Shown: one piece after another, positions 21,097 through 38,190 of the stretch | Numbering within the stretch: position 1 is the first letter of the stretch | Layout: the number at the start of each line of letters is the position of its first letter | Translations under genes and position numbers: made by a program | The notes under the pieces: generated by a model | Told to the model about the DNA's origin: nothing | Database searches by the model: none | The model's input: only the letters and a program-made list of their open reading frames with translations | DNA from: a virus | DNA length: 40,203 nucleotides | Virus record (IMG/VR): IMGVR_UViG_3300027763_000008 | Coordinates: 1 to 40,203 of that record | Strand: one strand, 5' to 3'

Positions 21097-22251
21097 TTAT
21101 GCCAAGTAACGCTTAACTTGAGCAGTGGGACGAGCAGTTGTCACCACAGCACCAGTAGTCATAGCAGCCAAAACAGCTACACCTGCGGGGTTGCGAACAA
21201 TCAGTGTACCTTCCATGATGTACTGATCCAAAGAAGCGTCAGCATTTGAGAACACTTCGTTGTTAGGACCAAGTTCACGCAAAGAACCCCACTGAACAAC
21301 ATCAGGATTCATAAACAGAATTGATGTGTTGTCGGAACCTGTTTGATCCATAACCCATGAGTCATCGATTTGATAGGTGTAGTTGAAGTCACCTTCGTAT
21401 GTACCAATTGTGTCGCCCTTGTCAGCAGGGTTAAAACGATTGATAGAACGGCTCTGAGGAATATTGTCAGAGATGGTGGTACGCAATGATGTTGGGACTA
21501 CCATGTTGGTAATCTTGGCATTAAAACGCTGTTCAGCAACAGTCACCAACTGCTTGTACAACACAGGGCTAAAAGCTTGCAGTGTTACACCAGTTGAGTA
21601 TGTGAAATAACCCAAACCTGCGTTAGACAAAACACCATTAAAAGGTGTGTTTGTATCAACAGCAGAAGTTGTGTCATTACCATCAGAAGTTGCCAAGTTC
21701 AACACTGAAGTTCCGTCTGTGTCATTGCCAGAACGTGTACCAGCAAAAGCAAACAAAGAACCAAATCTGCGACCTGTATTAGGAGCAGTTCCTTGGGTAG
21801 CGGCTTGACCAGAGTACTTGATAGAAGCACCATCTGCACGGAGCATCTGCAACTCAACGTCAAACATAATCTCAGTCAATTGCTTAACTTCTTGATAGGC
21901 TTGTGGGTCACCACCAGCTTGTTCAACAGCACGAGCAGTACCAGTTGCGCCAATAGTTGTTGTAAAAATCTGAGTGTAGTTACCCAAATTTGAACGTGTG
22001 TTGTTGTCAGCGGCAGAAGCCGTAACAGCAGCACCTTCCAACTTAGCATTCAGTGCGGGTACACGGAAGTAGTCGTTAGGCCAAATGTGCAAAGTCGAAT
22101 TGATTTTGCGTTTTTTGCTCATAGCCATGTTAGTAACCGGAGTGCGGTCTTTAACATAGTTTGAAACAGTCATGTCAAGGTCTTTGACAACGATATCGGT
22201 GGCGTATGCGCCATTACCATTACCTAGCGAGGTAGAGGTGATTGTAGACAT
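21097..22251 (-). CDS. Major capsid protein (SU10/DUF5309-like)
   Basis: A 384-residue protein that fits the SU10/DUF5309-type HK97-fold capsid family. Visible marks are the N-terminal region (NYVKDRTPVTNMAMSKKRKI), NYTQIFTTTIGATGTARAVE (residues 92-111), a long helix with EIMFDVELQMLRADGA (about 127-142), and a C-terminal block, GTLIVRNPAGVAVLAAM. Length agrees with that family. It is preceded by the scaffold gene and followed by a strong terminator. It would assemble the procapsid around the scaffold. No proteolytic N-arm site is obvious. Confidence 0.88.
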   Translation of the reverse strand: MSTITSTSLGNGNGAYATDIVVKDLDMTVSNYVKDRTPVTNMAMSKKRKINSTLHIWPNDYFRVPALNAKLEGAAVTASAADNNTRSNLGNYTQIFTTTIGATGTARAVEQAGGDPQAYQEVKQLTEIMFDVELQMLRADGASIKYSGQAATQGTAPNTGRRFGSLFAFAGTRSGNDTDGTSVLNLATSDGNDTTSAVDTNTPFNGVLSNAGLGYFTYSTGVTLQAFSPVLYKQLVTVAEQRFNAKITNMVVPTSLRTTISDNIPQSRSINRFNPADKGDTIGTYEGDFNYTYQIDDSWVMDQTGSDNTSILFMNPDVVQWGSLRELGPNNEVFSNADASLDQYIMEGTLIVRNPAGVAVLAAMTTGAVVTTARPTAQVKRYLA

Positions 22252-30167: not shown

Positions 30168-30195
30168 AATTTTTATATAGGATTCTTATACAGAG

Positions 30196-30204
30196 TTATC
30201 CACA
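30196..30204 (+). promoter_or_regulatory. Perfect DnaA box
   Basis: TTATCCACA, the strongest DnaA-box sequence. A degenerate copy, CTATCCACT, follows after two bases. It lies about 30 bases upstream of the late promoter -35 box, in non-coding DNA. It may mark a host-DnaA-dependent origin or let DnaA act on the late promoter. Confidence 0.5.
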
Positions 30205-30219
30205 GGCTATCCACTTGCT

Positions 30220-30240
30220 ATAGGTAGAAACCCTAATAGA
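30220..30240 (-). promoter_or_regulatory. TATTAGGG dyad, late-side copy
   Basis: On the minus strand CTATTAGGGTTTCTACCTATAG forms an imperfect inverted repeat (CTAT-AGG/CCTATAG). TCTATTAGGGTTT is shared base for base with the copy at 37552-37563. It lies 53 bases upstream of the late promoter -35 box and points the same way. Confidence 0.5.
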
Positions 30241-30884
30241 ATGATTACGGGGCCATCATCCAGCCCTTGGGAAGGCAGGTAGCTTACCAACCCAGATAAA
30301 CGTACTGAATCCATCAGTCTCTCTAGTAAGCAATGAACGGGAACATACAGGTGGAGCCCATCAGGGTTAAGTTAGATAAACAAGGTGCTACTTCTTTAAA
30401 GAAGAAAAAACAGTGGATGCCATAGTTCGTCCACAGTTAACCATCACACAATCCCCACCAAGACAGTTACCTAAAGAGCAGTGTTGTTTGTGTACAACAG
30501 GAAAAGTTTTAGAGAAATTTCGGGGATGGGGGAGTGGGCCCCCCCTTTTTGAACCAGTTCCAGTGCTACCCCCCCCCCACCAGTGTGTGCCTAGTGTGTG
30601 CCATGGGGGGTTTGTGAATGAGAGTCATTCTCATTTAGGGGGTGTGAGGGCGCAGGGAAAAGGGCAACACTAGGGGCCCACTCACTTAGTCACTCTTAAA
30701 AAGCCTGGCAATGCAGACAAACCCAGTGCAAAGCCCTGTAAATACTAGGTCTGTGGTGTTCTAAGGTTATGCAATAAATGCATAGTTTGGGGCTTGCTTG
30801 CTTATGCCACTGTGTGCCAGGTTATGCCCTGTTGAAATTATCTTGAATAATCCCAAACAATCAAGTGTAATTGACTACTAACAT

Positions 30885-30940
30885 TGTATTAGGGTTAACC
30901 CTTAAGGGTTTAAAGCTGTGTTTATTAGGGTTTGTCCCTA
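30885..30940 (+). promoter_or_regulatory. Two TATTAGGG dyads upstream of the GP88 unit
   Basis: TTGTATTAGGGTTAACCC begins at 30885 and runs into the palindromes AGGGTTAACCCT (30891-30902) and AACCCTTAAGGGTT (30897-30910). A second copy, TTTATTAGGGTTTGTCCCTA, lies at 30921-30940. Both precede the first gene of the rightward unit by about 80-130 bases. They look like operator or activator sites; no confident promoter hexamers were found nearby. Confidence 0.55.
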
Positions 30941-31019
30941 GTGTTTTTTGTGTTTTGCAGCGTTATATTTACTGCAAGCCTGTAGTTCCAGGTGTTAACT
31001 AAGCCCGAAAGTAAATATC

Positions 31020-31358
31020 ATGCAAAACGTAAACCCTCTTATCGCTGCAGCACTCGCACCATTCGCACCTGCTGCCACTGATCCTACAATGCAAGCCCTT
31101 GTCGATCAGTATGGATCGCTAGATTCTCACATTAAAGCCCTGCAGGGTAATCTTGAAATGCTTAAGAGTGCCATTAAAGCGCAGGGCGCAGGTAAGCACG
31201 AAGGCTCTATTTATCGTGCCACTGTATACGAAAGCGCAGGGCGCACAATTACAGATTGGAAAGCTGTCGCAGAGCATTTCAATCCCTCTTATCAATTGAT
31301 CACAGCGCACACCAGCACAGGTGCTGCGACACTGACAATTAAACCCACAAAGATCTAA
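31020..31358 (+). CDS. Unknown protein, first gene of the GP88 unit
   Basis: A 112-residue protein. Residues 1-20 are Ala/Pro-rich; residues 25-55 form a helix (QALVDQYGSLDSHIKALQGN); the C-terminal half is beta-like (YRATVYESAGRTITDW; ITAHTSTGAATLTIKP). Similar ends occur in small phage proteins of unknown role. The start has no AGGAGG but carries CCGAAAGTAA (31005-31014), the same ten bases found before the GP88 gene. The gene is richer in GC words (GCGC, CTGCAG) than the late genes. Confidence 0.78.
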   Translation: MQNVNPLIAAALAPFAPAATDPTMQALVDQYGSLDSHIKALQGNLEMLKSAIKAQGAGKHEGSIYRATVYESAGRTITDWKAVAEHFNPSYQLITAHTSTGAATLTIKPTKI

Positions 31359-31368
31359 GGTGCGCACC

Positions 31369-31452
31369 ATGGATAAAAACGATATATACGATATTTTAGC
31401 CGCTGTGGCTGTTGGCCTAATGTTGGCCTTTTTTCTCACAATTAGGGGTTAA
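31369..31452 (+). CDS. 27-residue membrane peptide
   Basis: The product begins MDKNDIYDILAAVAVGLML and ends FFLTIRG: a single transmembrane helix with an acidic start and Arg end. AAGGTG lies eight bases before the ATG. It fits between the first gene and the next small gene, two bases before its start. Function unknown. Confidence 0.65.
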   Translation: MDKNDIYDILAAVAVGLMLAFFLTIRG

Positions 31453-31454
31453 AA

Positions 31455-31607
31455 ATGGCCTATACATTAAAGCGATCAATTACGGGCTTGTCATTCGAAG
31501 ATATCAAGCGCATATATGACAATAATCCCAATATGACATTAAGAGAATTGTCTAATCTGACAGGTTATGCAATCCCTTTTTTAAAAAACCTGCTGCTAGA
31601 TAAGTAA
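31455..31607 (+). CDS. 50-residue helix-turn-helix-like protein
   Basis: The product begins MAYTLKRSITGLSFEDIKRI and contains MTLRELSNLTGYAIPFLKNL, which reads as a helix-turn-helix (a small DNA-binding unit). AGGGG precedes the ATG by seven bases. It could regulate this unit or the neighbouring control region, but is unproven. Confidence 0.65.
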   Translation: MAYTLKRSITGLSFEDIKRIYDNNPNMTLRELSNLTGYAIPFLKNLLLDK

Positions 31608-31618
31608 AGCTTACCCTG

Positions 31619-31660
31619 CAGACACTAGATATCTGGTGTCTGTGCGGTGCGCTTTGCACC
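31619..31660 (+). promoter_or_regulatory. Two hairpins before the GP88 gene
   Basis: Bases 31619-31642 form a 24-base dyad, perfect except for one T-G pair (arms CAGACAC and GTGTCTG around AGATATCT). A second hairpin, GGTGC/GCACC around GCTTT (31646-31660), follows. Neither has a T-run. They are candidates for an operator, RNA-processing site or translational control of the GP88 gene. Confidence 0.55.
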
Positions 31661-31685
31661 CAAAACCTAGACCGAAAGTAACATT

Positions 31686-32351
31686 ATGCGAATTATCCCC
31701 ATTATCCCAATGACCAAAAAACAAGCTGCCACTGTCTGTGGCACTCTCACAAGCACAAGCAAAATGCCTTGTAACTCTTACAGTCTGCCAACAGAGGCTT
31801 GCATAACAGGTTTCAAAATGGCACAGATTAAAGGCTCTATTTGCTCTATGTGCTATGCGGATAAAGGTTTTTATAAAATGTATGCGAATAATATTAAACC
31901 TGCACAATTTGCCCGTTTAGACAGCATATTAGGCGCACACTGGGTTTCCGGTATGGTGTCGCATATTGGAAATGATGCCTATTTTCGCTGGCATGATTCG
32001 GGTGATCTGCAAAGCCTAGAACATTTTGAGAAAATTGTGTCTGTGTGCGCTGCCACACCCAAAACAAGTCACTGGCTGCCAACTAGGGAATACGGAATTA
32101 TTAAGGCATTTATTGAAAAACATGGAAAGAATGCAATCCCTAAAAATTTAACTGTGCGCTTGTCTGCCATGTACCCTGACAAGCCCGTTACTGTGCCTGT
32201 ATCGCTGCAGGGTATCGCTGGTGTGACTGTGTCTAATGTGCATACATCAAAACCCATGGGGAATGTATGCAAAGCCCCTGCACAGAATGGAGAGTGCAAA
32301 GATTGCAGATTGTGCTGGTCTAATGCTGTGGTGTCATATGCGCTGCATTAA
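31686..32351 (+). CDS. GP88-family protein (Cys-rich, function unknown)
   Basis: A 221-residue member of the phage GP88 family. Marks are SKMPCNSYSLP (residues 25-35), CSMCYADKG (53-61), FRWHDSGDLQ (100-109), HWLPTRE (129-135) and a C-terminal cluster with Cys 195, 204, 207 and 210 (C-x8-C-x2-C-x2-C). The Cys pattern suggests a bound metal or iron-sulfur cluster. The family is found in actinobacterial and many aquatic phages; no activity is established. The start uses CCGAAAGTAA instead of a normal ribosome site. A terminator follows. Confidence 0.85.
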   Translation: MRIIPIIPMTKKQAATVCGTLTSTSKMPCNSYSLPTEACITGFKMAQIKGSICSMCYADKGFYKMYANNIKPAQFARLDSILGAHWVSGMVSHIGNDAYFRWHDSGDLQSLEHFEKIVSVCAATPKTSHWLPTREYGIIKAFIEKHGKNAIPKNLTVRLSAMYPDKPVTVPVSLQGIAGVTVSNVHTSKPMGNVCKAPAQNGECKDCRLCWSNAVVSYALH

Positions 32352-32365
32352 TTAAATAAACCTTT

Positions 32366-32392
32366 AAAAGCCCGTTTTTACGGGTTTTTTTT
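32366..32392 (+). terminator. Terminator of the GP88 unit
   Basis: AAAAGCCCGT pairs with ACGGGTTTTT around TTTT, followed by further T for eight in total. It ends rightward transcription 15 bases after the GP88 stop. Confidence 0.92.
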
Positions 32393-32700
32393 GGTCTGCA
32401 GGTGCTGGGTTATCCCTGTGCCTGTTTTTCGCTTTGCTGGGTGTCTGGCAGGGCTTTGCTGTGTCTGTCTGTGTGGCAGGTGCTGTGCTTTGTCTGTGTG
32501 CCTGTTTTTAAGGGCTTGCAGGTGCTGGGTGTGTGTGCGCTTGTCTGTGTGCCTGGGTGTGGCTTGTCTGTGCCTGTGGTGCGCTGTGTGTGGTGTCTGT
32601 GTGCCTGTAGTGGCAGGTTTTGCGCTGTGTGGTGCTGCAGGTGCTGCGCTGTGGTCTGCGCTTATGCGCTGCGCTGTGGTGCTTGGGTGTGCTTTTATCA
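32393..32700 (+). repeat. A-depleted GT-rich block with internal repeats
   Basis: About 300 bases with roughly 12 A on the plus strand, including 60 bases (32521-32580) with none. TGTCTGTGTGCCTG occurs exactly at 32491, 32542 and 32594 (period 51-52), and TGCAGGTGCTGGGT at 32397 and 32517. Open frames through it on both strands are Cys/Val- or His/Thr-rich and lack ribosome sites, so I treat it as non-coding. It lies directly after a terminator and before iterons. The block could be an origin, a pause or termination zone, or a source of a G/U-rich RNA. Confidence 0.75.
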
Positions 32701-32771
32701 ATAAAAACAAGGGTTTACAGCATTTTTTAAATGAAATGGATTATATGAGAGATAATATACCCATTAACTTT

Positions 32772-32834
32772 TTGATTATCTCGATTATGTGCCCGCCACT
32801 TTTCGATTATATCGATAATATTATGTCGATTATC
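32772..32834 (+). repeat. Nonamer iterons TCGATTATN
   Basis: Five copies of a nine-base unit: TTGATTATC (32772), TCGATTATG (32781), TCGATTATA (32803), TCGATAATA (32812) and TCGATTATC (32826). Copies 1-2 and 3-4 are direct tandem pairs. The stretch is AT-rich and non-coding. Clustered short direct repeats in AT-rich DNA are typical of initiator or partition-protein binding sites. Confidence 0.75.
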
Positions 32835-32856
32835 TCGTGTTCTGCCAATTTGCAAA

Positions 32857-32895
32857 AGGACCCCCCCCTCAAAAAGTTTTGGGGCCTCTTTTTTT
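32857..32895. terminator. Likely bidirectional terminator between converging units
   Basis: A C-run (AGGACCCC) pairs with GGGGCCT (bulged A) over an A/T loop, followed by seven T on the plus strand and TTTT on the minus. It lies just beyond the last gene of the leftward early unit. Confidence 0.7.
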
Positions 32896-32906
32896 GTCAG
32901 GGTTAA

Positions 32907-33266
32907 TTATGGAAATCTCAGAAGATAAAGTGTCGAATCTATTAGCTGCTGGATTTCATCTGCAATGTTCTGTATCTCAGAATCCTGCGGTAATACTTTG
33001 CGCTTTTCCTCAAAGTACTCTGACAACTCATGCAACTCACGTTTGCCAGTGTCGGCAGGTGTGTGGTATGTCGCAGGGAATTCTAGAGTTGAATCAAACT
33101 TGCCTTGGATGGCTTCGACTAGATCATCGACCTTGCCTGGTAACTCTTCGTAAAATGTGCCAAGGGCTTTATGTTCCGCATAGGATTTTGATTGCCAATG
33201 CAAAATGTGGGTGTTGGTCGCAGAGTGCAACAAGGTCAGGATTAGATCACCAATTTCATTGTCCAT
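32907..33266 (-). CDS. Ferritin-like helical protein (DUF5856-type)
   Basis: A 119-residue helical protein. It contains LLHSATNTHILHWQSKSYAE (residues 12-31), HKALGTFYEELPGKVDDLVE (32-51) and EIQNIADEIQQLIDSTLYLL at the end. The repeated His/Glu in a helical bundle resembles small Dps-like phage proteins. It could bind iron or protect DNA, but residue-level metal sites are not clear. It is the last gene of the leftward early unit and overlaps the nuclease gene by 11 bases. Confidence 0.72.
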   Translation of the reverse strand: MDNEIGDLILTLLHSATNTHILHWQSKSYAEHKALGTFYEELPGKVDDLVEAIQGKFDSTLEFPATYHTPADTGKRELHELSEYFEEKRKVLPQDSEIQNIADEIQQLIDSTLYLLRFP

Positions 33267-33660
33267 ATGGGACTCCCAAGTGGGTTAAGACACGCCTTGC
33301 TGCTTCTCTGCGCCAAGGTCGCAGGGTTATATTATCTGCTAAATCCATCCATGCGTGAAGTTGTCTTTTGTAGGCTTCCTGAAATGCTAGATTTTTGGTG
33401 TCGTAATCGGTATTTGAAGAGTCTAACCATGTGTGGCAATGGTAGCACCCCCACACGGAATGATGGTCATCTGCCTTAATTGAGCGACCTTTGCCATGAA
33501 TTAATAGGTTGGAGTGACAAGCTACAGTTGTGGAACCCTCCCCCCCCAAACAATTTTTGGCCACCTGTAAAAGACAAGGCTCACCTTCTGCCAATTCTAG
33601 AAGCTTTTTGTCTCTGTAATATTCATGCTTTCCAAAGCCACGTTTGCGCCAACCGCTCAT
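33256..33660 (-). CDS. YbcO/DUF1364-type nuclease
   Basis: A 134-residue protein resembling YbcO, a lambdoid HNH-like nuclease. Marks are KKLLELAEGEPCLLQ (residues 18-32), Cys 29 and Cys 37, TTVACHSN (44-51), a GKG-x4-DD segment (56-65) and CYHCH (72-76). In lambdoid phages this gene sits near RusA-type resolvases and takes part in recombination or repair; the same neighbourhood occurs here (RusA at 34925). It overlaps the small gene upstream (ATGA). Confidence 0.8.
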   Translation of the reverse strand: MSGWRKRGFGKHEYYRDKKLLELAEGEPCLLQVAKNCLGGEGSTTVACHSNLLIHGKGRSIKADDHHSVWGCYHCHTWLDSSNTDYDTKNLAFQEAYKRQLHAWMDLADNITLRPWRREAARRVLTHLGVPYGQ

Positions 33661-33752
33661 CTGGGGGCATCCTCATGGTTATCAGGATTGAATTTAGCTT
33701 TGCGCTGGTCTTTATGTTTTGGATTGGGAAATGGTGGAAATGGCCATGTCAT
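33657..33752 (-). CDS. 31-residue Pro/Lys-rich protein
   Basis: The product starts MTWPFPPFPNPKHKDQRKAK and ends NHEDAPR. Both ends overlap neighbours as ATGA, which is the main support. It is Pro-rich then basic and disordered. Function unknown. Confidence 0.6.
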   Translation of the reverse strand: MTWPFPPFPNPKHKDQRKAKFNPDNHEDAPR

Positions 33753-33967
33753 GCTTGTCCCTTTGCTCGGATGGCTTTAGAAAGTAGTGCACCATCTGCG
33801 CCCCACTCTTGCCATGATTCACACACCTTTGCACACGCCTCACGCTCATGCTGTGCTACTAGCTTGGCAAAGCGTTCTAGGTACTTGTATTGGCTAAACT
33901 CAAAGATATGTTCGTCATCTCTGACTCCAGCCTGTCTAGCCATCTCAATGATTTCATCTTGTGTCAT
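33749..33967 (-). CDS. Conserved small phage protein (ACAKVCE type)
   Basis: A 72-residue helical protein with a HEREACAKVCESWQEWGADG block, a pattern common in early regions of many phages of Proteobacteria. The start overlaps the previous stop. The role of the family is unknown. Confidence 0.8.
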   Translation of the reverse strand: MTQDEIIEMARQAGVRDDEHIFEFSQYKYLERFAKLVAQHEREACAKVCESWQEWGADGALLSKAIRAKGQA

Positions 33968-34281
33968 AGCTTCATCTCCACACGTTTTGTGTACTCTTCA
34001 GTTTTCCACACTTCCACCCGTAATTTGGCAGCCTCAAGCTTCCAACGCAATTCCTCTTCTTCAGCAATTGCATCTTTGATCTGAAATAGCAGTGCCACAT
34101 AGTCCGGATGGGCATAGGCATACATCTCTTTTGCACCCAATGACCCTTCTTCTTCAGAAGCCAGTATGGCCTTTTTTGACTTGCGATACTCTTCTAATTG
34201 CACCCTAGTAGCCTTAGATTGGGCATATTTAGGTGCGTTTGTCAGAATAAAGTTGATTGCTAGATGTGCGGGATTTTCCAT
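33964..34281 (-). CDS. Conserved helical early protein
   Basis: A 105-residue protein with a basic N-terminal helix (KYAQSKATRVQLEEYRKSKK), a middle turn (AYAHPDYVALL) and a C-terminal coiled coil (AIAEEEELRWKLEAAKLRVE). Similar coiled proteins are frequent in phage early regions; some contact recombination proteins, but the role here is unknown. It overlaps its neighbours at both ends. Confidence 0.76.
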   Translation of the reverse strand: MENPAHLAINFILTNAPKYAQSKATRVQLEEYRKSKKAILASEEEGSLGAKEMYAYAHPDYVALLFQIKDAIAEEEELRWKLEAAKLRVEVWKTEEYTKRVEMKL

Positions 34282-34550
34282 TACATTGCCTCGTTGATTA
34301 ACTTTTCTATGCCTTTGTCTATGCTGCCATCACCCATTTCAGTCAAAACTTTCTTTTGAATTGAATTGAGTTCAAGCTTGGCCACAGTGTTGTAAGTCAA
34401 AGTTCTAGGCTTTCCTGCACCCTTACGCTTACCACCCCATGTGCCAACAGGTCTGCCCAATTTCTTAGACAGTGCCTCTTTGCGCCTTTGCTCCATAATT
34501 TCCCACGCTTGGGCTAGTGCTTCAGGTGGGATGTTGCTTATCAGGCTCAT
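34281..34550 (-). CDS. Small basic protein with GKRKGAGKPR motif
   Basis: About 89 residues from the ATG at 34550, which overlaps the TGA of the Cys-rich peptide gene as ATGA; the longer frame from 34583 would overlap that gene almost fully. Residues 30-52 hold RPVGTWGGKRKGAGKPRTLT, a glycine/basic motif common in small phage and transposon DNA-binding proteins. The rest is helical. It may bind DNA or RNA. Confidence 0.75.
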   Translation of the reverse strand: MSLISNIPPEALAQAWEIMEQRRKEALSKKLGRPVGTWGGKRKGAGKPRTLTYNTVAKLELNSIQKKVLTEMGDGSIDKGIEKLINEAM

Positions 34551-34627
34551 TTTCTCAGTGGACAGTTTCTGCCTTGATTGCAATTTCCATTACATGGTGG
34601 GCAAGTTTTAGGAATAGTTGTGTTCAT
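34547..34627 (-). CDS. 26-residue Cys-rich peptide
   Basis: The product starts MNTTIPKTCPPCNGNCNQGR and ends NCPLRK. The C-x2-C-x3-C-x5-C spacing matches a recurring short phage protein (CxxC...C..GRxCP) and could bind zinc. Its start and stop overlap neighbours as ATGA. Confidence 0.75.
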   Translation of the reverse strand: MNTTIPKTCPPCNGNCNQGRNCPLRK

Positions 34628-34860
34628 GGCTCGTAATTCTCCAATTGCCAAATCTTTTTCTCATTGATGGCATTGCAACCTTCAATTTCTAGTTCTGCAA
34701 ATTGCTCTGGTGAAATCAAACCAATTACTTCTACACCCTCAAATTTGACTGATTCAATGTTTTCATCATAAATTCCGTCAATGTCTTCATCGTATGACAT
34801 GGTGACTTGGACTATTTCGCTACCACCGCCTGTTGTGGCTTGAAAATCAATTGTGTTCAT
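34624..34860 (-). CDS. Small acidic protein, unknown
   Basis: A 78-residue acidic beta/alpha protein (VTMSYDEDIDGIYDE; LISPEQFAELEIEG). The start carries the full AAGGAGAAAGTAATG ribosome cassette shared with the rightward early genes. It follows a promoter at 34906-34933. Function unknown. Confidence 0.8.
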   Translation of the reverse strand: MNTIDFQATTGGGSEIVQVTMSYDEDIDGIYDENIESVKFEGVEVIGLISPEQFAELEIEGCNAINEKKIWQLENYEP

Positions 34861-34905
34861 TACTTTCTCCTTTAAAAACTTAAATATATCTTGAAATCTT
34901 GATTA

Positions 34906-34933
34906 TTTATATAGGGACTTACCCTTAGTCCAA
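34906..34933 (-). promoter_or_regulatory. Sigma70-like internal promoter
   Basis: On the minus strand TTGGAC (34928-34933) and TATAAA (34906-34911) are 16 bases apart. It overlaps the end of rusA and would boost the genes from 34860 leftward. The TTGGAC match is partial, so this is a candidate. Confidence 0.5.
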
Positions 34934-35353
34934 ATCTTCCCTGACCATAACTTCGACCATGCCGACAGTGCCATAGACCTTGGTGATGTGCAGGGTTAAC
35001 ACTTGGGAATCGTCATGGTAGACCGCACCATTCATGGCATCTAAAAAGCATTTGGAAATATTATCGATGTCAGGCTTCTTAATTGGCTTCTCAGAGCCGT
35101 TTAAACAGGCTTCTGTGCGCTTTTTGGAATAGGACTGAGGGATAGGTACTGTGATGTAGATTGCGACTGTTACAGGCGTTTCTAGGATTTCATTGCTTCC
35201 CATGGCTTTTCGAGCAGCATCATTTATTACAGTTTCGTAATCTCGGGTTTTGGTAGGGGTGTAGGTGGATACAAAGTTACCCCGCCTTGCAAACTTGGGA
35301 CGGCCTTTGCCAACTGGATTGCCTTCAACCATGTAGGTGAGCATAAATGTCAT
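34925..35353 (-). CDS. rusA: RusA-type Holliday junction resolvase
   Basis: A 142-residue RusA-family endonuclease that cuts four-way junctions made during recombination or replication-fork repair. Marks are GNPVGKGRPKFAR (residues 11-23), KPDIDNISKCFLDAMNG (93-109) with Asp 95 and Asp 97, and YHDDSQV (112-118) with Asp 114/115; these acidic residues bind the metal. Length fits the family. The ATG overlaps the upstream stop (ATGA). It works with the annealing protein and YbcO-like nuclease elsewhere in the early regions. Confidence 0.92.
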   Translation of the reverse strand: MTFMLTYMVEGNPVGKGRPKFARRGNFVSTYTPTKTRDYETVINDAARKAMGSNEILETPVTVAIYITVPIPQSYSKKRTEACLNGSEKPIKKPDIDNISKCFLDAMNGAVYHDDSQVLTLHITKVYGTVGMVEVMVREDLD

Positions 35354-35562
35354 GCAAGTGTCCCATCTTTAATTCGGTTCATGTAATCTCGGATTCTGTC
35401 TCTTGCTCCAGAGCCATAAATACGCTCTGCTCTCTCAAGTCGGGCACGGATAAGATCCCTGTTCTTACCCCATTCCCAATTGCGGTATAGCTCTCTGGCC
35501 TCTGCTTGCTCTAGGATGACCCTGTCGCTAGGACCTTGGATATTACGTCTGCTGAAAGTCAC
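35350..35562 (-). CDS. Small basic early protein
   Basis: A 70-residue, Arg-rich helical protein (RNWEWGKNRDLIRARLERAE; RIRDYMNRIKDG) with a GTG start and GGAG just upstream. Arg-rich helices suggest nucleic-acid binding. It overlaps rusA (ATGA) downstream and the small gene 35543-35656 upstream by 20 bases. Confidence 0.75.
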   Translation of the reverse strand: MTFSRRNIQGPSDRVILEQAEARELYRNWEWGKNRDLIRARLERAERIYGSGARDRIRDYMNRIKDGTLA

Positions 35563-35656
35563 CAGTAAGCTCCAAAGCCATCAGTATTATTTTTTCTGGG
35601 TAAGGCACTCCGTCTTTAACCTTATCCAAGATTCTGATTGCGTCTGCGTATGTCAA
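35543..35656 (-). CDS. 37-residue conserved peptide (TTG start)
   Basis: The product starts (as Met) MTYADAIRILDKVKDGVPYP and ends MALELTGDFQQT. GGGAG eight bases upstream makes a strong ribosome site for the TTG. The AIRILDKVKDG...LTGD pattern is familiar from small phage early proteins. It overlaps both neighbours. Function unknown. Confidence 0.75.
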   Translation of the reverse strand: MTYADAIRILDKVKDGVPYPEKIILMALELTGDFQQT

Positions 35657-35915
35657 GCTTTTCTCCCATAATTAAAAATTTAGCAGCCCAAAAAAAACCT
35701 ATTGCTTCATTATTTAATTTGTATTTGTTTAATTTTTCAGCTTTAAGTGATGCTATTTTTCTTTTATTTGATTCTTGTTCAAGTTTTTGTATACATTTTT
35801 CTTTTTCAAAATCTGCAATCAAAGAAGCAAAAGCTTGTATTCGCATATCAAATTCAGCATCTTGGGCATCCCATCCAGCTTCAACTGCCATGCAAATAAT
35901 GTCATTTTTATTCAT
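35622..35915 (-). CDS. Small early protein, unknown
   Basis: A 97-residue protein beginning MNKNDIICMAVEAGWDAQDA, then FASLIADFEKEKC and a Lys-rich helical region. Its 5' part resembles the HEREAC-type protein at 33749-33967 (IIxMAxxAG, FAxLxA-xExxxC), so the two are probably paralogues. It overlaps the replication initiator gene by four bases. The 3' half is more AT-rich and Lys-rich than its neighbours. Confidence 0.72.
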   Translation of the reverse strand: MNKNDIICMAVEAGWDAQDAEFDMRIQAFASLIADFEKEKCIQKLEQESNKRKIASLKAEKLNKYKLNNEAIGFFWAAKFLIMGEKLDIRRRNQNLG

Positions 35916-36682
35916 GCTTTTCTCCTTAACTCAGCCATCTTTGCCAATACCTCAAATGGTATGGGGGCAGCCTTTTTATCGTCTGCCTTTATCTTTTCCA
36001 AAGCAGGGTCAGGAAGGTTTGATGGTGCAACAGTTACCCTACCAATGTCGGCAGGGTTCATTTTGGGTGCGTTTGTGCTTCTCACCCAATTGCGCCATGT
36101 AGCTTCCCAATCAAGCTTCACACCCTTTTGGCCAGGTTGAGCAATCCAATAATCTTTGAACTTTTCAAAAGTCTGTAATGGCTCTAGATCTGGTCTTTCT
36201 TTTTTACAAAAAGCTAACCATTCACCTGTAAAAAGAAAATCTGAAGAGAGGCGTGAGCCTCGCTTGTTCTTATCTATTGGTTTATGGTTTATGGTTAGTG
36301 GTTTATGGTTAGGGTTATTTTGGCTTTCATTTGGTAACCCATCAATAACCGACTGGGTTTTCTTTGGCCTACCACCTAGCTTCCCATTGTTCTTGTTTTT
36401 CTCTACTTGCTCTTGGTAGTCCTTGATCTCCACTTCTATGCGCTTATGCACATACCCTGTTTTACCCTCTTTAAAGAAGTCAGACAGTACATTTTGTAGG
36501 GATGAAAACTCCATGTCAGAACCCAAACGTAACCTACGAGAAACCACTTGGGTTTCCAAAGGTATGGGCTTTTCATCAAGGTAATACCAATCAATTAATT
36601 GGCGATAAATACCATGCTCAATCGTTGAAAGATGACTAGTGTCTTTCCGATAGTCGGCTATGTTGAACTTGTAGTAGTGCAT
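35912..36682 (-). CDS. DUF1376-type replication initiator
   Basis: A 256-residue protein. Residues 1-90 match the DUF1376 domain (MHYYKFNIADYRKDTSHLST; IYRQLIDWYYLDEKPIP), found at the N-terminus of phage and prophage replication initiators (O-protein role). A basic linker with GKLGGRPKK (101-108) and NHKP repeats (125-134) precedes a C-terminal domain (WLAFCKKERPDLEPLQTFEKF; WEATWRNWVRS) of the kind that recruits a helicase or loader. No helicase-loader gene was found, so it probably engages host proteins. The gene carries heptamer repeats at 36279-36313, as lambda O carries its origin. Confidence 0.85.
   Translation of the reverse strand: MHYYKFNIADYRKDTSHLSTIEHGIYRQLIDWYYLDEKPIPLETQVVSRRLRLGSDMEFSSLQNVLSDFFKEGKTGYVHKRIEVEIKDYQEQVEKNKNNGKLGGRPKKTQSVIDGLPNESQNNPNHKPLTINHKPIDKNKRGSRLSSDFLFTGEWLAFCKKERPDLEPLQTFEKFKDYWIAQPGQKGVKLDWEATWRNWVRSTNAPKMNPADIGRVTVAPSNLPDPALEKIKADDKKAAPIPFEVLAKMAELRRKA
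36279..36313 (+). repeat. Heptamer repeats inside the initiator gene, candidate origin
   Basis: Five successive seven-base units: GGTTTAT, GGTTTAT, GGTTAGT, GGTTTAT, GGTTAGG. The period of seven is not a multiple of three, so coding constraint does not explain it; the DNA repeat itself seems to be selected. This mirrors lambda, where initiator-binding iterons lie within the O gene. Confidence 0.65.
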
Positions 36683-36726
36683 AAAATCCGCTTTTTAAAC
36701 ACCCTTTAAAGAAACTGCGGCAGGAG

Positions 36727-36764
36727 AAGGGTTAACTCTTTTCAGTGGGGTAGCTACCCCCCAC
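36727..36764 (-). promoter_or_regulatory. Operator-like palindromes in the initiator leader
   Basis: GTGGGG (36745-36750) pairs with CCCCAC (36759-36764), with the core GGGGTAGCTACCCC being a perfect palindrome. AAGGGTTAACTCTT (36727-36740) is a near palindrome similar to AGGGTTAACCCT at 30891. Both lie in the 5' leader between promoter 36783-36811 and the initiator ATG, where they could serve as operator or RNA hairpin. Confidence 0.55.
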
Positions 36765-36782
36765 CTAGCCGTGTTTCAAAAC

Positions 36783-36811
36783 AATATAACCTATTTTTGA
36801 CTACGCTTCAA
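36783..36811 (-). promoter_or_regulatory. Sigma70-like promoter for the replication genes
   Basis: On the minus strand TTGAAG (36806-36811) lies 17 bases before TATATT (36783-36788). The transcript would start near 36776, giving a leader of about 94 bases before the DUF1376 gene. Good spacing and near-consensus hexamers. Confidence 0.6.
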
Positions 36812-36988
36812 GCTTCTAAGCTTAGTTGTTGAATGGCCAATATGGAAAAATCCACATGATGGGCATTTGTATATCTGAAAAGAATTATCTCTTTTTTTAG
36901 AAATTGTGGATTCGGCTATGGTAAATGTTGGAAATGGATGCTTACCCACACACTGAACGGCAGGGTCAAACTTGTCGGTTGTTTTCAC
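36791..36988 (-). CDS. Small zinc-finger-like protein
   Basis: I prefer the GTG at 36988, preceded by AGGCGG, giving 65 residues (MKTTDKFDPAVQCVGKHPFP onward). An upstream ATG at 37054 would overlap the regulator gene by 89 bases and adds only antisense-like residues. IYKCPSCGFFHIGH is a C-x2-C...H-x2-H finger-like unit, followed by a basic tail. Early regulatory or DNA-binding role is likely. Confidence 0.72.
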   Translation of the reverse strand: MKTTDKFDPAVQCVGKHPFPTFTIAESTISKKRDNSFQIYKCPSCGFFHIGHSTTKLRSLKRSQK

Positions 36989-37346
36989 TAGAAACCGCCT
37001 TTGAATAGGTTGTAAAGGTGGGATTGCCCTTGTAAAAGCTTCTAGCATGGGCATTCATTATTCTGTACTCAGCAGGGGTAAATATACCCTTTGCGTTCCT
37101 GATATCAAAGGGGTTTAGTTTGTCTTCAGGCTCACTTTGTTTTTGCTCCCATATTGGGTTCGTTAAAGTGTACTCTGCCACCCAGTAGCGACCAAACTTG
37201 ACCTGTCTTGTTGTTAGCTCACCTTTGTAGCGTAATTTCTTGGCCGTAGACAGAACTGTAGACTTGGTCATACCAGTTAAATTGACCACCTCATAAGAGG
37301 TTAAAGGACCATTTTGTAGGGCATTGATTACTAACGCTTGGCTCAT
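36966..37346 (-). CDS. Winged-helix DNA-binding regulator
   Basis: A 126-residue protein with an N-terminal winged helix-turn-helix (residues 3-60): VINALQNGPLTSYEVVNLTG, MTKSTVLSTAKKLRYKGEL, then a wing around RQVKFGRYWVAEYT. The C-terminal half is polar and probably makes contacts or dimerises. The ATG overlaps the upstream stop (ATGA). As second gene after the divergent control site at 37548-37576, it is the best candidate for the regulator that binds the TATTAGGG dyads; this is inference. Confidence 0.8.
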   Translation of the reverse strand: MSQALVINALQNGPLTSYEVVNLTGMTKSTVLSTAKKLRYKGELTTRQVKFGRYWVAEYTLTNPIWEQKQSEPEDKLNPFDIRNAKGIFTPAEYRIMNAHARSFYKGNPTFTTYSKAVSSENNRQV

Positions 37347-37519
37347 TTGTACATTCCTGAAATGTTGATGGATTTATCGGTGTGAAGCTCTAAGGCTTTG
37401 CATAGTAAAGCAACAATGGCGGCATCTCTGTCGTCAGGTTGGCTATAAGTTATAACCAAGTTATAGGCGTAAGCCAATAGGGCTTGGGCGCAATCGTGTT
37501 CGGTTTGTTCAATGTTCAT
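37343..37519 (-). CDS. 58-residue first gene of the leftward early unit
   Basis: The product starts MNIEQTEHDCAQALLAYAYN, with helical continuation (DDRDAAIVALLCKALELH) and end NISGMYK. Its stop overlaps the regulator ATG (ATGA). The start lies only 8 bases from a TAATAT element and the ribosome site is weak, so the mRNA may have a very short leader. Function unknown; early small proteins of this position often target host functions. Confidence 0.76.
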   Translation of the reverse strand: MNIEQTEHDCAQALLAYAYNLVITYSQPDDRDAAIVALLCKALELHTDKSINISGMYK

Positions 37520-37547
37520 ACGCAGAATATTAGTGTTGTTTTTTTGT

Positions 37548-37576
37548 TTGTCTATTAGGGTTTATCCTAATACAAA
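37548..37576. promoter_or_regulatory. Divergent promoter with TATTAGG/CCTAATA operator
   Basis: TATTAGG (37553-37559) and CCTAATA (37566-37572) are a perfect inverted repeat around GTTTAT. For rightward transcription, TTGTCT (37548-37553) and TACAAA (37571-37576) are 17 bases apart, so the dyad fills the spacer exactly. For leftward transcription, TAGACA (37549-37554) lies 16 bases before TAATAT. A protein bound here could control both early units at once. Confidence 0.6.
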
Positions 37577-37622
37577 TAATTTAAAAGTCGTGGCACATTA
37601 GAGGCTCTTTAAGGAGAAAGTA

Positions 37623-38019: not shown

Positions 38020-38190
38020 ATGAAAACAAAAACACTTATTCATGTTCGTCAATTGTTTATGACGTATGATGCACCCCCCCAAACAATTCGCAGCTACCAA
38101 CGTCAATGGATTCGCTCTGTGCGCTATCTTGGCGACAATTGGTTGTTGGCCAAAAAGGTAGAAAGACTTGAAACTCCAAAACCTATTTGA
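38020..38190 (+). CDS. 56-residue basic protein
   Basis: The product starts MKTKTLIHVRQLFMTYDAPP and continues QTIRSYQRQWIRSVRYLGDN to a basic end. It is rich in Arg, Gln and aromatic residues. The AAGGAGAAAGTAATG cassette overlaps the previous stop region. A nucleic-acid-binding role is plausible. Function unknown. Confidence 0.8.
   Translation: MKTKTLIHVRQLFMTYDAPPQTIRSYQRQWIRSVRYLGDNWLLAKKVERLETPKPI

Follow-up and report, generated by a model that had tools for sequence, protein, structure and literature searches.

Which regulator acts on the short inverted repeat recurring ahead of the main transcription units is the question raised by positions 30,220 to 37,576 of the window, i.e., the whole stretch of 40,203 nucleotides analysed here. 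The window represents a freshwater phage and forms a circular contig with a 127-bp terminal repeat and 40,076 unique bases. Among its proteins, GP88 (PF17338), a Sak annealing protein, the product of a DUF1376 replication gene, and MazG were recognised, and its terminase bears a likeness to those of podoviruses of 40–50 kb. The closest annotated record, MW202484 (Podoviridae sp. ctfne034; TerL 84.7%), contains neither the dyads nor the winged-helix gene discussed below and carries a Cro of its own.

All the inverted-repeat copies listed in the earlier note lie where it placed them. The sequence TATTAGGGTT has exactly four copies in the window (30229 on the minus strand; 30887, 30923, and 37553 on the plus strand), none of them inside a gene, and TTGTATTAGG-RT-W-AACCC is indeed common to 30885 and the minus strand at 37576. 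The general rule adopted for the dyad, TAGGG-N4/5-CCCTA with limited mismatch, was fixed after the sites had been seen, so that the relatives and a virus-wide scan serve as the independent tests. The set computed with this rule comprises exactly five sites in the window (30221, 30890, 30926, 34912, and 37556), all intergenic; as the intergenic share of the genome is 9.4%, the binomial probability of five out of five is 7e-6. Dinucleotide shuffles yield an expected 0.16–0.20 dyads. The motif search proposed in the earlier note, with its comparison of genes, intergenic DNA, and related phages, came out in favour of the motif, which is enriched intergenically (5 versus ~0.2) and occupies the same places in relatives.

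The early dyad, TATTAGGGTTTATCCTAATA (37553–37572, core 37556–37569), separates two divergent early units. Two dyads precede the GP88 unit on the plus strand, the promoter-proximal TAGGGTTTGTCCCTA at 30926–30940 and a second, upstream one at 30890–30904, 36 bp from the first. The fifth dyad, internal to the early region and reading AAGGGTAAGTCCCTA on the minus strand (34912–34926), was missing from the earlier list; it is located upstream of the ORF at 34624–34860 and overlaps the 3' end of the ORF at 34925–35353 by 2 nt. In the late-unit dyad (30221–30235, minus strand) one arm is imperfect: the window reads TAGGTAGAAACCCTA and relatives read TAGGGGTAAACCCTA. This dyad adjoins a DnaA-box-like TGTGGATAA.

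Relatives of the winged-helix protein are encoded in ~100 virus contigs. By the same rule, most complete relatives contain 3–5 dyads per genome against ~0.2–0.35 expected, largely at homologous places, and these places are shared with relatives down to ~46% identity in the adjacent protein. Records with the early dyad at the corresponding place number 97; they have either the 58-aa ORF (37343–37519, minus strand), which is the first gene of the leftward unit, or Cro-A, as we call the P22-Cro-like gene present in front of the winged-helix gene in place of the 58-aa ORF in some relatives. Nearly all records with one of these two genes in front carry the dyad ~229 bp upstream of the winged-helix start, and its variants among relatives are TAGGATAAACCCTA, TAGGGGTTTTCCCTA, and TAGGTGYTTTCCCTA. 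The other sites are conserved as well: in relatives, too, the internal dyad precedes the ORF corresponding to 34624–34860, most close relatives have the late dyad, and L004 and G001 have the GP88 pair. In G016, a close relative with a different Cro-type gene, the dyads are gone at the early and internal places. Several contigs with the motif only (e.g., L112 and L135), where the dyad lies within long terminator-like hairpins, were set aside. In the rightward early leader, the block GTGGCACATTA (37595–37606, plus strand) is conserved across both clades of relatives regardless of the dyad variant; a sigma54 reading of this block was ruled out, as the GC at -12 varies among relatives.

A -10 hexamer follows the end of the dyad by 23 nt, in the direction of transcription, at three promoters: the leftward early, the internal early, and the GP88 promoter. 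The predicted hexamers are TAATAT (37527–37532, minus strand, measured from the dyad core), TATATT (34883–34888, minus strand), and TATATT (30964–30969, plus strand), the GP88 promoter of the window reading TAGGGTTTGTCCCTA-23-TATATT. Scored with an E. coli -10 matrix, 28 non-redundant flanks give a peak at offset 23 (z 7.8), and the peak recurs in each class alone (58-aa-ORF z 4.3, Cro z 4.6, internal z 4.9). Two tandem dyads are present in L048, the proximal one at 23 nt, and L061 is likewise arranged. At the leftward early promoter the distance from the -10 to the ATG is 6–7 nt in most relatives and 7 nt in the window (ATG at 37519), which places +1 on the ATG, predicts a leaderless mRNA for the first leftward early gene, and puts the dyad centre at -42.5 to -43.5. 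The dyad spans -36 to -50 at the three promoters, outside the core promoter. A -35-like hexamer is clear at offset 1, beside the dyad, in the 58-aa-ORF class, and is good enough that activation there may not be obligatory; for the internal and Cro classes the hexamer scan beside the dyad showed no such signal. The rightward early promoter is predicted at 37548–37576 (plus strand) as TTGTCT-17-TACAAA, enclosing the dyad and weaker than the leftward one; its -10 is TATAAA in other relatives versus TACAAA in the window. The late dyad falls outside the 23-nt geometry, with no -10 at that distance and the nearest -10-like hexamers ~20 or 30 nt away. In L036, L070, and G015 (~21,430–21,450 in the last) another inverted repeat, TCAACATTTTGTTGA or CAAATAATTTATTTG, is present before Cro-A, between the dyad and the -10, and is possibly a Cro operator differing between lineages.

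The dyad with a -10 at 23 nt recurs beyond the relatives. In the virus-wide scan TAGGGTWWAYCCTA-N23-TATAMT was found in 20 virus contigs; the same arms with TATAMT at N18 or at N28, and scrambled arms at N23, were found in 0 contigs each. Grouping by common proteins and by flanks that are nearly identical reduces the 20 contigs to approximately nine groups, some of which may represent chance occurrences or terminators; a perfect TTGACA adjoins the dyad in L235, and L241 contains a longer hairpin. One of the nine groups consists of GP88 phages akin to L088 and L089, whose genes include one for a sigma factor and one for a different terminase. In G036, an unrelated GP88 phage, a dyad pair precedes GP88 with a spacing of 38 bp versus 36 bp in the window. 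No homologue of the winged helix, 58-aa ORF, Cro, or initiator of the window group was detectable in the unrelated GP88 phages.

On balance we lean, by a small measure, towards the dyad being a multi-copy site for a dimeric regulator, perhaps encoded by the host, that activates three promoters and represses the rightward one. TAGGG-N4/5-CCCTA would be the site from which a dimeric regulator works on sigma70-type RNA polymerase. Three promoters (leftward early, internal early, and GP88) would have it at about -43, just upstream of the -35 element or replacing it, a position from which the bound protein would most likely activate through contact with the polymerase; Mor at Mu Pm and cI at lambda PRM activate in this way. 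The divergent rightward promoter would have the early dyad, shared with the leftward one, between its -35 and -10, and binding there would most likely repress it. The outcome would be an early switch, rightward transcription coming first and leftward afterwards; the geometry agrees with a single operator repressing one promoter and activating the divergent one. The earlier note had proposed that one regulator coordinates early, GP88, and late transcription: a conserved element with fixed geometry is shared by the early and GP88 promoters, and the part of the proposal that finds no support is the winged helix as that regulator. To late transcription the proposal may or may not apply: the late dyad is conserved, yet it departs from the 23-nt geometry and adjoins the DnaA-box-like sequence.

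The closest described architecture is that of Mu Pm: a 16-bp element centred at -43.5 contains two 5-bp inverted repeats, and Mor bound to them takes the place of the -35 (PMC4390567). The window likewise has a short-armed inverted repeat of 15–16 bp near -43.5 at predicted sigma70 promoters, but its sequence is different, it serves several promoters per genome, and no Mor-family protein accompanies it (PF08765 in 0/16 genomes). Lambda OR is also similar in several respects: there, the divergent promoters PRM and PR share operators bound by cI and Cro, with the OR2 site near PRM. Common to both are the operator shared by divergent promoters, a site at about -42 (of the leftward promoter), a first gene that is leaderless (by prediction in the window), and, in some relatives of the window, Cro-like genes in the corresponding slot. 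However, the window has one dyad in place of three sites, and the same dyad is also present at distant promoters; no cI-like repressor was recognised beside the operators, the slot being occupied by the 58-aa ORF, which has no regulator match, or by P22_Cro-like proteins. The stoperators of the mycobacteriophages L5 and Bxb1 are asymmetric, numerous in each genome, and located downstream of or away from promoters; they too are a single regulator motif repeated at intergenic places, but the sites of the window are few, symmetric, and fixed in their spacing to the -10. In MarR-family autoregulation a palindromic site is found upstream of the operon encoding the MarR-like protein. A palindrome upstream of an operon with a MarR-type winged helix is present here as well, yet dyad and protein occur independently. 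A literature search for TTAGGG operators and class II leaderless phage promoters gave no match. If the activator reading is true, the dyad, 23 nt, and -10 make up a signature by which promoters under regulation can be predicted for many uncultivated phages, and the reading would point to a common regulator needed by unrelated phages.

In phages, a symmetric operator at a promoter is often where a repressor binds, and the dyads might be plain repressor operators serving shut-off only. The dyad within the predicted rightward promoter agrees with such a function, but at the three other promoters it occupies -36 to -50 at a fixed distance from the -10 and next to a mostly weak -35, which is the geometry of an activator, and we regard pure repression as improbable. 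Far less credible still is that the dyads are repeats of a replication origin or transcribed RNA hairpins. Arms of 5 bp with loops of 4–5 nt could fold, and a DnaA-box-like sequence adjoins the late dyad; against this, the distance to the -10 is fixed, the dyads are upstream of the predicted starts and hence untranscribed from those promoters, and they are scattered across 7 kb before separate units. The DnaA-box-like TTATCCACA and an AT-rich stretch next to the late dyad (30190–30215) possibly constitute a replication origin.

As to the binder, the earlier note had named the adjacent protein (36966–37346, minus strand) as the natural candidate, so that it would bind all the dyads and regulate its own unit. 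Its match to MarR_2 (E 1.6e-4) is below the Pfam cut-off, but the AlphaFold model is a winged helix (pLDDT ~87 over residues 1–60) whose PDB matches are MarR proteins, and by this model the protein is a true MarR-like winged helix. The fold is thus of a suitable kind, the gene belongs to a unit preceded by a dyad, and, of the 97 records that combine a dyad with the 58-aa ORF or Cro-A, 86 contain it. The remaining 11 records comprise G029, G030, G032, G033, and seven loci, of which some belong to the same contigs; in these the gene is missing, whereas the 58-aa ORF and the dyad are present. The uncoupling also runs the other way: G016-type relatives carry the gene and no early dyad, and Cro-B-type loci carry it with no dyad in the 1.2 kb upstream, where the locus extends that far. 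L009 and L010 encode an identical winged-helix protein and have different dyad variants, and the unrelated dyad-bearing GP88 phages share the promoter architecture without the gene. On co-occurrence this protein was rejected as the dyad binder, and the earlier view of it is left with very little probability; no relatives of it were found in bacterial genomes or GenBank phages. The gene adjacent to an operator need not be its regulator, and it is the comparison of ~100 relatives that tells the two apart.

Other proteins of the group fared no better. Cro-like proteins are unlikely to bind the TAGGG dyad, as their recognition helices vary and the dyad does not. The basic ORF at 38020–38190 is absent from one clade of relatives and was rejected as a universal binder. 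No dyad-bearing genome of the group lacks the ORF at 34624–34860; the product is acidic, though, and the ORF also occurs in the dyad-poor G016. The RHH-like ORF at 34281–34583 is limited to part of the group and has no Pfam match. A further phage-encoded binder, represented by different proteins or unrecognised homologues in each lineage, is in our judgement rather unlikely, with the dyad losses in G016 in its favour: G016-type phages changed the Cro-type gene and lost the early and internal dyads, as a linked regulator predicts, and MW202484, with its own Cro, is devoid of dyads. On the other side, no DNA-binding phage gene or family tracks the dyads across the compared genomes, and unrelated phages with the same architecture have no regulator in common. 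That last circumstance makes a host-encoded protein, used by several unrelated phage lineages, the leading guess for the putative binder. It remains a guess since two strict-pattern scans of bacteria, both of low power, gave no host signal: among 84,980 species there were 12 scattered matches, and in the class of an Aeromonas match 1 of 369 genomes, the matching genome itself. The full proposal, that an undescribed host activator recognising TAGGG-N4/5-CCCTA at about -43 runs the early and GP88 promoters of several unrelated lineages, is accordingly put forward as a tentative one, with the balance against it.

The earlier note had also described a reduced form of the motif at 36727–36740, in the initiator leader. 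The sequence, AAGGGTTAACTCTT, is present, yet it belongs to the second stem-loop of a structured minus-strand RNA (36702–36775) and is neither a copy of the dyad nor an operator. This RNA matches Rfam int-alpA (RF02996) over its full length with 26.0 bits (E 0.0013 over 221 bases), below the gathering score of 35.8 bits. Compensatory changes affect 6 of 13 pairs in 18 sequences, and ~40 distinct relatives with the covarying stem were found in this phage group. The conserved CTAG...GAAAAG core and the full-length structural match are shared with int-alpA RNA; the sub-threshold score and the location, between a Zn-ribbon-like ORF and the replication gene, are not. The replication gene here is the DUF1376 one, and its leader contains the int-alpA-like RNA. 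In the early region of G029, G030, G032, and G033 the C-terminal part of the initiator is common and the N-terminal part, which is DUF1376 or of unrelated types, is swapped between relatives; G033 shows this swap together with the loss of the winged-helix gene.

Some further features of the window lie near the units discussed above. Within the GP88 unit, a 50-aa HTH-like ORF (31455–31607, plus strand) is present in the window only among the compared genomes and has no Pfam match. The GP88 unit is separated from the leftward genes by an intergenic, G/T-rich segment (32390–32710) with recurring TGCAGGTGCTGG-like words. Several rightward early genes between 37610 and 39345 are preceded by an identical ribosome-binding leader, GGAGAAAGTA, of which there are 5 copies in the window.
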